DNA from: Nitrospirota bacterium
Lineage (GTDB): Bacteria > Nitrospirota > Nitrospiria > Nitrospirales > Nitrospiraceae
Assembly: GCA_028876065.1 (NCBI GenBank)
Contig: JAGWTI010000028.1
Coordinates: 1-37,324 of the forward strand
Length of the DNA stretch: 37,324 nt
Direction: 5' to 3'
Part shown: piece by piece, positions 23,953 through 30,681 of the stretch
How the letters are laid out: every line of letters starts with the position of its first letter
Numbering within the stretch: position 1 is the first letter of the stretch
The notes under the pieces: generated by a model
Told to the model about the DNA's origin: nothing
Databases searched by the model: none
What the model saw: the letters and a program-made list of their open reading frames with translations, nothing else
Program-made: the position numbers and the translations under genes

Positions 23953-24444
23953 ATGCGGGAGAAGATCAAGAGCCGCGCCGCCTTGGCGGCGGAGTTGGCG
24001 GCCCGGCGGGCGCAACGCGAGCGGATCGTGTTCACCAACGGCTGCTTCGATTTGATGCACGTGGGGCACGTCCGCTATTTGGAAGAAGCCCGGACGCTGG
24101 GCGATCTGCTGGTGGTCGGGGTGAACAGCGATGAATCCGTCCGGGCGCTGAACAAAGGCGCGGAGCGGCCCATCGTGCCGCAGGATCAGCGGGCCGAAGT
24201 CCTCGCCGCCCTGGCCTGCGTGGACTATGTCGTCCTGTTCGGCGAGCCGGACCCGGGCCGGCTGATCGCCGAGCTCCAGCCCGACGTCCTCGTCAAGGGC
24301 GGAGACTGGGCGCCGGAGCAGATCGTCGGCCGCGAGACCGTGCAAGCCCATGGCGGGACGGTCCGGACGATCCCCCTGGTCCCCGGCGTGTCCACCACGA
24401 GCCTCATTGAAACCATCCGAAAGGGCGTGAAACGTGAGGCGTGA
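23953..24444 (+). CDS. rfaE2: D-glycero-beta-D-manno-heptose 1-phosphate adenylyltransferase
   Basis: A 163-residue nucleotidyltransferase of the cytidylyltransferase-like superfamily. TNGCFDLMHVGHVRYLEEA contains the HxGH motif, and VKGGDWAPEQIVG near the C-terminus is typical of the HldE C-terminal domain. It transfers AMP to heptose 1-phosphate, the step before HldD. Here it stands alone rather than fused to the kinase domain as in E. coli HldE; the kinase and GmhB phosphatase are not in the window. The last codons lie in a heptamer repeat, and its TGA overlaps a GTG start of mfd. Confidence 0.85.
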   Translation: MREKIKSRAALAAELAARRAQRERIVFTNGCFDLMHVGHVRYLEEARTLGDLLVVGVNSDESVRALNKGAERPIVPQDQRAEVLAALACVDYVVLFGEPDPGRLIAELQPDVLVKGGDWAPEQIVGRETVQAHGGTVRTIPLVPGVSTTSLIETIRKGVKREA

Positions 24445-24499
24445 GGCGGTCCATGGGAAAAATCTCCCGACCGTCCGCGCGTCCCGCACGACGCATCAC
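24425..24499 (+). repeat. heptamer element across the rfaE2-mfd junction
   Basis: Units GCGTGAA, ACGTGAG, GCGTGAG (24425-24445) are followed about 45 bases later by an inverse arm CGCATCACG (24491-24499) that matches CGTGAGGCG at 8 of 9 positions. The element codes for the end of RfaE2 and overlaps the proposed start of Mfd. Confidence 0.45.
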
Positions 24500-27400
24500 G
24501 AATAACGTGCCCGCCGCCCCATCATCGACAACCACTGGCTGGGACCAGACGTTCAAGCCCGTGCTCGAGGCGCTGCAACGCATCGAGGGCCGGCCCTGCC
24601 TGACCGGTCTGCACGGCTCGACGCCGGCCTTGGCTCTCACGCTGCTCGCGCAAGCCCGAGCGGAGGCGTCCTGGCTGGTCGTCGCCGCCACGGACGACGC
24701 GGCCGAACGGTTCCACGAGGACCTGCGGTTCTTCTTCGCCCTGCTCGGCCGGTCTCCCGAGCCGCTGACCCTCTTTCCCGAATGGGAAACCCTGCCGTAC
24801 GAAGCCACCCCGCCGCACGTGGAGTTGATCGGGCGCCGGATGCGGACCCTCCGCCGCCTGACGGACCGGGCCCAGACCCTGCTCGTCACTTCCGTGCCGG
24901 CGCTGCTGCAGCGATTGCTTCCGCCGGAGGTGTTTCGCTCCGCCTGCCTGCTGCTGAAACCGGGAGACACCGTCGAGCGCGAGGCCCTGACGTCGCGCCT
25001 GCTGCGCCTCGGCTATCGCCGGGCCTCGGTCGTGGAGATCCCCGGCGAGTTCAGCATCCGCGGCGGGATCGTGGACATGTTTTCCACCGCCTTTGCCGAC
25101 CCGCTGCGGGTCGAGTTCCTGGGGGACACGGTCGAATCCATCCGCTGCTTCGACACGGCCACGCAGAAATCCACCGCCAAGATGGACCAAGCCTGGCTGC
25201 TGCCGGCGCGGGAGTTGATGTACGGCGAGGCGCAGCCCGAGGCCCTGGAGGCCCTCCCGCCCGACGCGGAGTGGCGCGGCCCGAAGGTCTATCACGGCAT
25301 GGCCTCGCTGCTGGATTATTTTCACGACCAACCGCTGGTGGTGCTGGACCAGCCGAAGAGCCTGAGCGAGAAGGCCGACCTCTTTCATCAGGAAGTCGAG
25401 GAAGCCTACGACCGTCACGGGGGCCGCAACGGCCCCGATCCTTACCCGACCCCGAACCGGCTCTACAGCCGGTGGGATGAACTCCGGCAGCGGATGAGGC
25501 CCTGGCCCTGTCTCGCCACGGAGCCGCTGGCGGCCCCCGACGAGTCCTGGGAGCCGGTCGTCGCGTTTCCCGCTCAGTCGCCCGCCAGCGTCGGGCTGGC
25601 CCAGCGCGGCACGCCTTTCTCCGAAACCCTGGCCACACTGGATCAGCTTCGGACCCAGGGCCTCGTGCTGATCGTGGCCCGCAGCCGCGGCCAGGTGGAC
25701 CGGCTGTTGGCGCTCTTCGCCGAGCATGACTTGCCCGCCGTCCCCTGGAAGCCGCAGTGCTGGTCACAGGGCTCGTCGAAGAAACAGCCTTTCTACCTGC
25801 TGCAGGGGGACTTGTCCGCCGGCTTCGTCTCCGCCGAAGGCCGCTGCACGATCATCACCGAGGAGGAACTGTTCGCCAAGGGGCTGCGGCACCGGCCGGC
25901 GCCCAAGAGCAAGACGGCGACCTTCCTGTCCTCGCTGGAGGACCTGAGCGTCGGCGACTACGTCGTCCACGTGCAGCACGGCATCGGCCGGTATCAGGGC
26001 CTCAAGCGGCTGTCCGTGCAGGACTTCGAGAGCGACTACCTGATCCTGGAGTTCGCCGGCGGCGACACCCTCTACGTCCCGCTGGACCGGCTCAACCAGG
26101 TCCAGCGCTATCGCGGGGCGGAGGGCCACGGCCCCCGGATGGACCGATTGGGCGGGACCAGTTGGGCGAAGACCACGGCCAAGGTCAAGCAAGACATCGA
26201 GGAGATGGCCCACGAACTGGTGGAGCTCTACGCCAACCGCGAGGTGGTGCATCGCCGCGAATACGGCGGCGACAGCACGCTGACCCACGAGTTCGAGGCG
26301 GCCTTCGAGTTCGAGGAGACGCAGGACCAGCTCCGCGCCATCGAGGACATCAAGCGCGACATGGAAGCGCCCAAGCCCATGGACCGGCTGGTCTGCGGCG
26401 ACGTGGGCTACGGCAAGACGGAAGTGGCCATGCGCGCGGCCTTCAAGGCCGTGGAACACAACAAGCAGGTGGCCGTGCTCGTCCCGACCACCCTCCTGGC
26501 CCAGCAGCACTACGACAACTTCTCGCAGCGCTTCGCGCCCTTTCCGGCGAAAGTCGCCATGCTCTCCCGGTTTCAAAACCCCAAGCAGACCAAGGCGGCG
26601 TTGAAGGAGCTGGCGGCCGGGACCGTGGACGTCATCATCGGCACGCACCGGCTGCTCCAGAAGGACGTGCAGTTCCGGGACCTGGGCCTGGTCATCATCG
26701 ACGAGGAACAGTGGTTCGGGGTGCGCCACAAGGAACGGCTCAAGCAGATGCGGACGCAGGTGGACGTCCTGACCCTGACCGCCACGCCGATCCCCCGCAC
26801 CTTGCAGATGGCCATGTCCGGCGTCCGCGACCTGTCGGTCATCGAAACGCCGCCCATGGGCCGCCTCTCGATCAAGAGCCAGGTCCTGCGCTTCAACGAG
26901 GCGACCATCCGGGAGGCGATCGTCCGCGAGCTGGGCCGGGGCGGCCAGGCCTTCTTCGTCCACAACCGGGTCCAGACCATGGAGAAGATCGGCGCCTGGC
27001 TGCAGCAGCTGGTGCCGGAGGCGCGGATCGTCATGGCCCACGGCCAGATGGACGAGCGGCTGCTGGAATCGGTCATGCTGAAGTTCGTCCAGCGCGAGGC
27101 GGACGTGCTCGTGGCCAGCGCGATCATCCAGTCCGGCCTGGACGTGCCCAACGCGAACACGATCCTCGTGAACCGGGCGGACACCTTCGGGCTCGCGCAG
27201 CTCTACCAGCTGCGGGGCCGGGTGGGCCGGGCGGGCCACCAGGCCTACGCCTACTTCTTCGTGCCGGACGAGGGCACCCTGACCGGCGACGCGCAGAAAC
27301 GCCTCGTGGCGATCCAGGAATTCACGGAGCTCGGCGCGGGCTTCCGGATCGCGGCGGCCGACCTGGAGATTCGCGGCGCCGGCAACCTGTTGGGCAAACA

Positions 27401-28993: not shown

Positions 28994-29983
28994 ATGTTGC
29001 CGGACATCGCGCCCATGCACAGACGGTCGTCTTACCCGCTCCGTCACGTCTTTCGGACAGCGGCCGGCGCGCTGCTCGTCCTGCTGGGCGCGGCCTTCCT
29101 GTGTCCCCCGCCGGCCGACGCCACGGTCCTCGCGGACCGGATCGTGGCGGTCGTCAACGCCGAGGTCATCACCCTGTCGGAACTCAAGGCGGAAACGGAG
29201 CCGGCCGAAACCCGCCTCCGCTCGCAGTACCGAGGCGCCGACCTGGACCGCCGCATCCGCCAGATCGAGCTGGAGACCTTGACCCGGATGATCGAGACGA
29301 AACTCCAGTTGCAGATGGCCAAGACCCGAGGCGTCGAAGTGACGGAGGATGAAGTGAAGAGCACGTTCAAGGAGATGCAACGCCAGGGCGAAAAACTGGA
29401 CGAATCCAATCCCGAGATCCGACGCGGCATCCGCGAGCAACTCCTGCTGCTGAAAATCGTCGACCGTGAAGTGCGCAGCACCCTGCTGGTGTCGGAAGTC
29501 GAACTCCAGCGGTACTACATGCAGCATCAAAGCCGGTTCCTCCTGCCCGACGAATACCGGATCAGCCAGATTCTGTTCATTCCCCGATCCAATGAAGACC
29601 GGGCCCAGGTCCGAGCCAGAGCCCAGGCCGCCTATGCCGAGCTGAAAAACGGAGCCGAGTTCGGGGACATGGTCATGCGCTATTCGGACGGGCCGGAAGC
29701 GACGAAGGGCGGCGCCCTCGGGTTCGTCCGCCAGGGGGAACTCCTGCCGCCGATCGAACGGGCCCTCGCCTCGCTGGAAGTCGGACAAATCAGCGAGCCG
29801 GTCGAGACGCCGATGGGGCTGCATATCCTCCGCCTGGACGAGAAGATCCCGCCCGGTTTCCGGCCCTTCGCCGAAGTCCGGAACGAGATTCACGGGCTCG
29901 TCTATCGGCAGAAGAACGAGGACGGGTTCCAAACCTGGCTCAAGGAGCTGAAGAACAAGGCCTACATCGAGGTGAAATTCTAG
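28994..29983 (+). CDS. surA: periplasmic chaperone/peptidyl-prolyl isomerase SurA
   Basis: A 329-residue exported protein. The signal peptide lies near residues 13-40 (TAAGALLVLLGAAFL, Ala-rich cleavage region ADA). The SurA N-terminal domain begins DRIVAVVNAEVITLSEL, a hallmark of the family. A single rotamase domain follows (SQILFIPRS and GGALGFVRQGELLPPIERAL), whereas E. coli SurA has two. It assists folding of outer-membrane proteins. Starts at ATG 28994 or 29015 are equally possible; no good ribosome site is visible. A heptamer repeat array follows its stop. Confidence 0.8.
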   Translation: MLPDIAPMHRRSSYPLRHVFRTAAGALLVLLGAAFLCPPPADATVLADRIVAVVNAEVITLSELKAETEPAETRLRSQYRGADLDRRIRQIELETLTRMIETKLQLQMAKTRGVEVTEDEVKSTFKEMQRQGEKLDESNPEIRRGIREQLLLLKIVDREVRSTLLVSEVELQRYYMQHQSRFLLPDEYRISQILFIPRSNEDRAQVRARAQAAYAELKNGAEFGDMVMRYSDGPEATKGGALGFVRQGELLPPIERALASLEVGQISEPVETPMGLHILRLDEKIPPGFRPFAEVRNEIHGLVYRQKNEDGFQTWLKELKNKAYIEVKF

Positions 29984-30011
29984 CGTCGCAGGAGAAACGC
30001 GGGAACGGAGT

Positions 30012-30095
30012 GTTCAGTGAACGGTTTTCAGTGGTCGGTTCCGGAAACTGAGAACTGAATACTGATCACGCTTCACGAGGAACGATTCACGAGAT
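30012..30095. repeat. twelve-unit heptamer array after surA, running into engB
   Basis: Twelve 7-base units in unbroken register. The first ones contain TTCAGT or CGGT (GTTCAGT, TTTCAGT), the middle unit is TCCGGAA, then come ACTGAGA and ACTGAAT, and finally ACG-starting units (ACGCTTC, ACGAGGA, ACGATTC). The left CAGT units are inverse to the right ACTG units, making a broad palindrome. The last units encode the C-terminus and stop of EngB on the reverse strand. Confidence 0.65.
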
Positions 30096-30681
30096 CGCGG
30101 ATCGCCTTCCAGAGTTCATCCCGCCCCTCGTGCGTCGCCGAGGAATAGGCCACGCACCGATCCGACGCGGACAAGTGGAACGTCTCCCGCACGGCCGCCA
30201 GGCTCGCGTCGCGCTCGCGGCGCGAGAGCTTGTCGGTCTTCGTCAGCACCAGCACCGGCCGCTGCACGTGGTCGCACAGCCAGCCATAGGTGGAGGCGTC
30301 GTGCTCCTCCGTCCCGCGCGCATCCAGGAGCAAGAACAGGGCGTGGAGCTCGTGCCTGGCCGTCAGGTACCGTTCGATCATCGGCCCCCATTGCGCAATC
30401 GCCGACTTGGAGGCTTTCGCGTACCCGTAGCCCGGCAGGTCCACCAGGTAGAAACTTTTCAGGCGGGCATCCGCCGTCGTCACGCGGAAGAAGTTCACGG
30501 CCCTGGTTTTTCCCGGCGTCCGGCTGACTTTCGCCAGCGCCTTCCGGTTGAGCAACGAATTGATCAGGGACGACTTCCCCACGTTCGACCGTCCGACGAA
30601 GGCCACCTCGGGCGTCCGGTCCTTGGGAAAGTCCTCCGGCGTCACGCAACTCCGGAGAAACTCCGCGGTGAGGATTTTCAT
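30073..30681 (-). CDS. engB: ribosome-biogenesis GTP-binding protein EngB/YsxC
   Basis: A 202-residue GTPase. Motifs are G1 GRSNVGKSS, G3 DLPGYGYAKAS and G4 TKTDKLS, the arrangement of the EngB (YihA/YsxC) family that assists 50S subunit assembly. The ATG at 30681 gives the typical N-terminus; the reverse frame is open further upstream but into the mtgA promoter region. No strong ribosome site is seen. It is divergent from mtgA and convergent with surA, and its last few residues come from a heptamer array. Confidence 0.9.
   Translation of the reverse strand: MKILTAEFLRSCVTPEDFPKDRTPEVAFVGRSNVGKSSLINSLLNRKALAKVSRTPGKTRAVNFFRVTTADARLKSFYLVDLPGYGYAKASKSAIAQWGPMIERYLTARHELHALFLLLDARGTEEHDASTYGWLCDHVQRPVLVLTKTDKLSRRERDASLAAVRETFHLSASDRCVAYSSATHEGRDELWKAIRDLVNRSS

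Follow-up and report, generated by a model that had tools for sequence, protein, structure and literature searches.

Cyanobacterial STRRs are intergenic heptamers arranged as direct tandem repeats, and REP and MITE-like elements are short, non-coding intergenic palindromes that occur in many copies and form families of similar copies. Heptanucleotide repeats are reported to be over-represented in bacteria, with slippage only a proposed reason in the available text of the two studies concerned (PMC4679880, PMC4692102). TAACTGA direct repeats are found in Beggiatoaceae, Cyanobacteria and Bacteroidetes, where they occur patchily and related heptamers interrupt some of the sets (MacGregor 2015, PMC4679880). 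In Geobacter, class 3 sites consist of five tandem heptanucleotides with the consensus MTYCTGA, and the available description calls the Geobacter site classes mostly paired. The G-rich heptamers of Xanthomonas and Nostoc are intergenic, lie between the same genes in related strains and vary in length and sequence, and some of those in Xanthomonas form inverted pairs, all of which applies to the arrays described here as well (PMC4692102). A model for one protein reading heptads is the omega repressor of plasmid pSM19035, whose parS/operator arrays hold 7 to 10 contiguous 7-bp units (PMC4498918).

The array at positions 30012-30095 of the analysed stretch of DNA (37,324 nt, hereafter the window) is classed here as a variant of intergenic heptamer repeats with the behaviour of a dispersed palindrome, outside the STRR, TAACTGA and REP families. 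Unlike REP and MITE-like palindromes it has heptad arms, a Y1 transposase is absent from three of the genomes that carry such arrays, and no target duplication was recognised. With the TAACTGA repeats (PMC4679880) it shares period 7 and an intergenic, dispersed occurrence, and TAACTGA itself equals an ACTGA unit with the spacer TA. In the available text of that study the whole heptamer is fixed and direct, with one inverted case, whereas here two positions are nearly free, the arms are inverted and many words are in use. TA is just one among many spacers in the ACTGA matches of the array's own genome (G000; other G numbers denote relatives), and the window copy has GA, AT and TC after ACTGA and thus lacks the TAACTGA unit. 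Most TAACTGA repeats of the main genome described there lie just upstream of start codons, whereas here arrays are fewer at divergent junctions; the window copy lies between convergent genes, and arrays at tandem junctions lie near both stop and start. The Geobacter class 3 sites, compared by consensus only, have the CTGA core and degenerate positions in common with the present arrays but differ in the other bases, and the available account of their 16 aligned sequences does not describe flank-sharing copies or word switching. The Xanthomonas and Nostoc words are of the G-quadruplex, GGGNATC type, and a constant-plus-free pattern is not described in the accessible part of that paper (PMC4692102). 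The omega repressor heptads sit at plasmid promoters, unlike the arrays here (PMC4498918). A literature search, with most subscription journals outside its scope, returned no description of such arrays in Nitrospira.

Table 1. Positions of the heptad arrays and neighbouring genes in the window.
Feature	Position	Strand	Basis
Left arm: four heptads NNTCAGT / NNACGGT / NNTCAGT / NNTCGGT	30012..30039	+	Sequence; word family recurs in genome
Centre TCCGGAA, palindromic TTCCGGAA if the preceding base is included	30040..30046	.	Sequence
Right arm: three heptads ACTGANN (ACTGAGA ACTGAAT ACTGATC)	30047..30067	+	Sequence
Second-word segment, ACG/CACG-type heptads	30068..30095	+	Sequence
surA-like chaperone gene (SurA_N + PPIC rotamase), upstream of array	28994..29983	+	ORF, own gene call; Pfam SurA_N, Rotamase
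engB-like GTPase gene	30073..30681	-	ORF, stop and start triplets, MMR_HSR1, orthologues in relatives
Second inverted heptad pair of the window: GGCGTGA... then ...GCATCACG	24425..24510	+	Sequence

The 84 bases form twelve 7-base registers, in the order GTTCAGT, GAACGGT, TTTCAGT, GGTCGGT; TCCGGAA; ACTGAGA, ACTGAAT, ACTGATC; ACGCTTC, ACGAGGA, ACGATTC, ACGAGAT. Two heptad arms, (NNTCAGT)n and (ACTGANN)n, face each other in inverse orientation across the centre TCCGGAA, and heptads of CACG type come after the right arm (Table 1). Centres of the TTCCGGA/TCCGGA/TCCGGAA kind were found in 7 of 28 non-redundant arrays. An earlier note had proposed that period 7 is held for the full 84 bases. This is borne out by a lag-7 identity of 40/77 (window mean 19.6, sd 4.2) that none of 20,000 dinucleotide shuffles reached, and the period-7 maximum of the whole window, 43 matches from position 30009, falls here. 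Tandem Repeats Finder did not list the array at scores down to 30, and its words vary along its length. The description of the array as partly palindromic stands in the sense of word order, with TCAGT on the left and ACTGA on the right, and does not extend to folding as a single DNA strand, which is no better than in shuffles (z -0.83). Searches of Rfam 15 gave no match for the window, and just two tRNAs among 16 loci.

The array lies between two convergent genes, surA-like and engB-like, and the engB stop triplet (30073-30075) falls inside its CACG units, which encode the last engB codons and the TGA stop on the minus strand. Since the GTPase domain of engB is intact, the array adds a tail and a stop and the gene is not destroyed; the idea that it replaces the 3' end of engB thus applies to the last few codons and the stop, but not to the domain. 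Comparison of engB ends, which the note had recommended, did reveal change among relatives: at the surA-engB junction of G002 the CACG segment is present but 14 nt shorter, and in G003 the word is TCAGC. Two further observations concern engB. At the divergent engB-transglycosylase junction of G003 (L174), an extra TCAGC heptad array that is absent in G000 lies upstream of engB. In G001 (L079) the downstream neighbour of engB is another sequence, not surA, and the end of engB bears AGGAGTGAGGAGTAA, which also has period 7. The second array of the window (24425-24510) sits where a coaD-like gene ends, ahead of an mfd-like gene; the coaD-mfd junction of G003 likewise carries heptads, which belong to that word class but differ in individual bases.

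The word family recurs elsewhere in the genome. With at most one mismatch, ACTGANNACTGANNACTGA has 46 matches in G000 against 1 for the reversed control, one of them (G000:C16:30047-30065) being the right arm of the window array, and TTCACGNNTCACG has 134 against 8. The view of the array as a modular element of heptamers rather than a simple microsatellite is upheld by this recurrence in inverted pairs. Many further period-7 arrays were also found in the genome check that the note had made the touchstone of its proposal, which clearly came through. Word-blind counts on sampled stretches, rather than whole genomes, gave 39 period-7 runs in 309,007 bases of G000, 37 in 332,401 bases of G003 and 26 in 160,000 bases of G014, the last from the 8 of 20 regions chosen neither at array matches nor at engB. 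Periods 4, 5, 8, 10, 11 and 13 gave 1 to 10 runs each in the same samples, and period 7 is therefore far above other periods not divisible by 3 in the three sampled genomes. Between genes, period 8 slightly exceeds periods 10, 11 and 13, with 6, 6 and 4 runs in G000, G003 and G014 against mostly 1-2 and up to 5.

Based on our own gene calls, the runs are mainly intergenic (32/41 in G000 plus the window, 31/37 in G003, 91/98 across the full set of 20 G014 regions). When only junctions of 60 bp or more are counted, arrays occur at 3/29 divergent junctions in G000, 1/30 in G003 and 3/34 in G014, and at 20/136, 16/116 and 63/168 non-divergent ones. Pooled, they are rarer at divergent junctions (7/93 vs 99/420 elsewhere, p = 0.0002), a deficit that is carried mostly by G014 and is not significant in G000 (p = 0.39) or G003 (p = 0.09) alone. 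Convergent junctions hold arrays in 6/21, 0/17 and 11/19 cases, respectively, so that a convergent preference is not general. An array at a tandem junction typically lies close to both neighbouring genes, with medians of 8 nt for the stop and 14 nt for the start (119 arrays).

The words themselves are diverse (GCTGA, ACTGA, CGTGA, GTGAT, GAATG, ATGGC, GAGGC and others), and within a junction the word of the right half is the inverse of that of the left half. On average, the halves share 5.19 inverse 5-mers in G000 (16 junctions), 8.30 in G003 (10) and 6.22 in G014 (51), compared with 1.87, 2.26 and 1.75 after right halves have been exchanged between junctions; the observed value exceeds all 500 swaps in each genome. 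When 33 TCAGT/ACTGA arms were aligned on the seed of the right arm, which leaves the left arm unconditioned, left-arm agreement was about 0.55 in the pentamer columns and about 0.38 in the two spacer columns (our own averages of column values), and most G000 copies differ in their spacer bases. Spacers do not pair across arms: the value is 0.304, compared with 0.368 (sd 0.040) for swapped arms, in 28 non-redundant bipartite arrays. Across all words, support for a rule of five constant plus two free positions is partial. The two columns with the least conservation lie next to each other in 16/31 imperfect cores of G000 (two near-perfect cores left out) and 16/30 of G003 but in 37/102 of G014, where chance is one third, and the rule is therefore claimed for the TCAGT family only.

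In this family, pentamers change more slowly than spacers. At seven orthologous junctions, 29/255 pentamer and 27/74 spacer positions differ, in counts that are not independent and come from units registered by hand. For G000/G002 the differences are 11/110 and 14/32, and for G001/G002 18/145 and 13/42, whereas flanking four-fold sites differ by roughly 0.2-0.4 and 0.13-0.24, respectively, in frames judged to be coding; frames with almost no four-fold differences were judged to be antisense shadow frames and set aside. The pentamers thus fall clearly below this neutral yardstick in G000/G002 and modestly below it in G001/G002. Spacer change is uneven, with sites C (9/12) and G (7/10) almost fully rewritten and site J at 1/14, a pattern more consistent with some arrays having been replaced than with change at a steady rate.

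Orthologous junctions differ in the state of their arrays. Nineteen junctions, each with sequence from at least two genomes, were scored by eye (sites O and Q, for which a usable second genome is lacking, were left out); most G000/G002 pairs were chosen through arrays at both loci, and joint presence is biased accordingly. The word is identical in all compared genomes at sites B, F, H, I and J. At C and G, one pair keeps the word with rewritten spacers and other states occur elsewhere. At least one relative carries a different word at A (engB, TCAGC in G003), D, G (GAGGC in G014), K, L and N, as is the case at four more G000/G002 junctions (L126/L237, L126/L238, L068/L225, L074/L223). One relative lacks the array at C (another repeat in G003), E (G003), M (G000) and P (G000). 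At E, the array-free junction of G003 measures 52 against 123 bp, and at P, G000 is array-free where G002 carries about 73 bp of inserted sequence. When E and P were read by eye, no clear target-site duplication could be made out, the cleanest array-free site included. Among junctions met in the G003 sample, heptads are present at D, K, M and N (at M as a remnant only), none are found at C and E, and L is uncertain. Flanks are mostly 77-97% identical in DNA, while the arrays are present, absent, rewritten or differently worded in close relatives. Such array differences account for some unstable intergenic lengths and gene C-termini, such as that of engB, and these junction states make slippage, a mobile repeat or a recognised site a testable choice.

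Copies that share more than their heptads occur in two relatives. In G002, 9 copies have nearly identical spacers and similar flanks and lie inside a longer palindrome with AAAAAG...CTTTTT stems, and in G022, 6 copies among 30 loci examined have common spacers, with flanks that differ from the G002 set. Pairwise identity of the copies stays above background for roughly 140 bp in G002 and 90 bp in G022, but not beyond. Similar dispersed copies with inverted-repeat structure, as in MITEs, are thus present in G002 and G022 and were not demonstrated in G000; copying is seen in these two relatives only, and dispersed families are seen for the TCAGT/ACTGA word and not for other words. Also encountered was a longer repeat between genes (L003, L007, L210-L219), a palindrome of about 150-200 nt whose stems are CAAAAAG...CTTTTTC-like; some copies hold the TCAGT palindrome centrally, and L100 and L177 are without heptads. 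Among six genomes searched, the Y1 transposase (PF01797) is absent from G001, G002 and G003, all same-genus array carriers, and present in G000, G014 and G022. The Y1 domain is therefore not the common mobiliser of the arrays, and membership in the REP/RAYT system was rejected on this absence.

In our judgement the chance is about even that the window array belongs to a numerous class of short palindromes between genes, which carry heptad arms, behave like mobile repeats and gather at gene ends. This reading is preferred chiefly because the G002 and G022 copies look like dispersed repeats. Also in its favour are the 46 matches against 1 in the own genome, the excess of period-7 runs, the inverse arm words, the array-free orthologous junctions at E and P, the slower change of pentamers and the scarcity of arrays at divergent junctions. 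It is weakened by the absence of the Y1 domain from three array carriers, the failure to recognise a target-site duplication, the differing spacers of most G000 copies and the slippage-like (TTCACGC)n arrays. Such elements would behave as non-autonomous dispersed repeats, MITE- or REP-like, and in the TCAGT family their arms would combine a conserved pentamer with two nearly free bases, the word being inverse between arms. Copies would be inserted or copied into gene junctions, mostly at gene ends and perhaps by transposition, and insertion there may be tolerated because a late stop codon can come from the array itself; such tolerance could also explain their location. The unit number would shift in steps of 7, and old copies would retain the pentamers, as putative recognition units of a factor that binds or moves the arrays, while the two spacer bases drift. 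Heptad recognition by a putative protein could go further, although we consider this extension doubtful: one or more factors would read pentamers spaced exactly 7 bp in inverted arms and move, renew or use the palindromes, with junction arrays repeatedly rebuilt. If so, rebuilt arrays would keep their architecture and take new spacers or words, and renewal rather than simple inheritance would be the rule.

The main rival is ordinary heptanucleotide slippage, which we regard as possible though on balance unlikely. Here, 7-nt units would be favoured, arrays would survive in permissive gene-end spacers, arms would arise by template switching and words by mutation, with no recognising factor involved. 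The over-representation of heptanucleotide repeats in many bacteria, ascribed to slippage in the available text of PMC4679880 and PMC4692102, is in line with this, as are the 14 nt length difference at the engB junction, the location of arrays mainly outside coding sequence and the perfect (TTCACGC)n arrays of G000, with up to about 13 units. However, slippage and decay would treat all seven positions alike, and this conflicts with the slower change of orthologous TCAGT pentamers than of spacers (29/255 vs 27/74); template switching would copy spacers too, yet spacers pair across arms no more than in swapped arms (0.304 vs 0.368), and the copies in G002 and G022 have common non-heptad flanks. 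Chance or composition alone as the source has a practically negligible probability, given 0/20,000 shuffles, 46 matches against 1 in the control and the orthologous copy in G002.

Alternatively, the arrays could act in the transcript as functional hairpins, located between cistrons or at the 3' end of the mRNA, where they would terminate transcription without the help of a U tract or serve to protect or process the 3' end; selection would then keep their position and leave the words free. Junctions with arrays do fold better relative to shuffles (mean z -2.61 in G000, -1.67 in G003 and -2.23 in G014; n=16, 7, 45) than array-free ones (-0.47, -0.77 and -0.65; n=88, 73, 87), arm words covary between arrays, orthologous junctions often carry an array of a different word, and arrays are rarer at divergent junctions. 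The spacer bases are nevertheless unpaired across arms, the window copy folds at shuffle level as DNA and many junctions have no array at all, which together with the lack of enrichment of T tracts of at least 5 (0.06, 0.14 and 0.08 with arrays vs 0.11, 0.07 and 0.09 without) makes this explanation improbable. An intrinsic terminator, hairpin plus U tract, was rejected on the T tracts, though hairpin potential is raised. It is very improbable that the arrays serve as all-frame stop elements in which TGA at period 7 closes every frame. Many words do hold TGA or TCA, and the triplet most often conserved at the period is TCA (12/33, 7/30 and 32/102 cores), but a conserved TGA is missing from most cores, C often takes the place of the pentamer's middle T, and genes ended by arrays are not clearly TGA-rich (12/16, 10/19 and 23/49 vs 155/281, 127/262 and 193/323).

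The suggested likeness to cyanobacterial STRRs is a matter of degree. The window array has a tandem period of 7, as any heptanucleotide simple repeat or STRR, but it is not one head-to-tail heptamer with all seven positions alike, because its words change within the array, its arms are inverted and pentamer and spacer contrast. The likeness is true of the direct (TTCACGC)n arrays of G000, and does not hold for the window element, which is bipartite and inverted with two nearly free positions per unit and whose type of palindrome forms the core of dispersed repeats in two relatives. Perfect (TTCACGC)n arrays, which look like slippage, were observed at G000:C116:13246-13335 (L069, L129), C107:52395-52463 and C92:17382-17429. 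Two junctions with (TTCACGC)n in G000 have G002 orthologues that carry TCAGT or TCAGC arrays.

Across genomes, the ACTGA-triple match (at most one mismatch) occurs at least once in 34 of 61 genomes (the own genome and 60 relatives), concentrated in the own family, and several of the 34 have just one or two matches, near control level. A phylum-wide search of 395 genomes for the exact bipartite core matched 6 (G000, G003, G014, G022, G258, G410), with a strict pattern under which G001 scores none despite its 22 looser matches, and the reversed control alone matches two other genomes of the phylum. Among named genomes, the CCGG-centred core was found at 8 loci, 7 in Nitrospira or Nitrospiraceae MAGs and 1 in an Acidobacteria MAG, and the host of the window array is on this ground probably related to Nitrospira. 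The densest TCAGT/ACTGA genome seen is G022, with 198 exact three-unit matches in 2.3 Mb.
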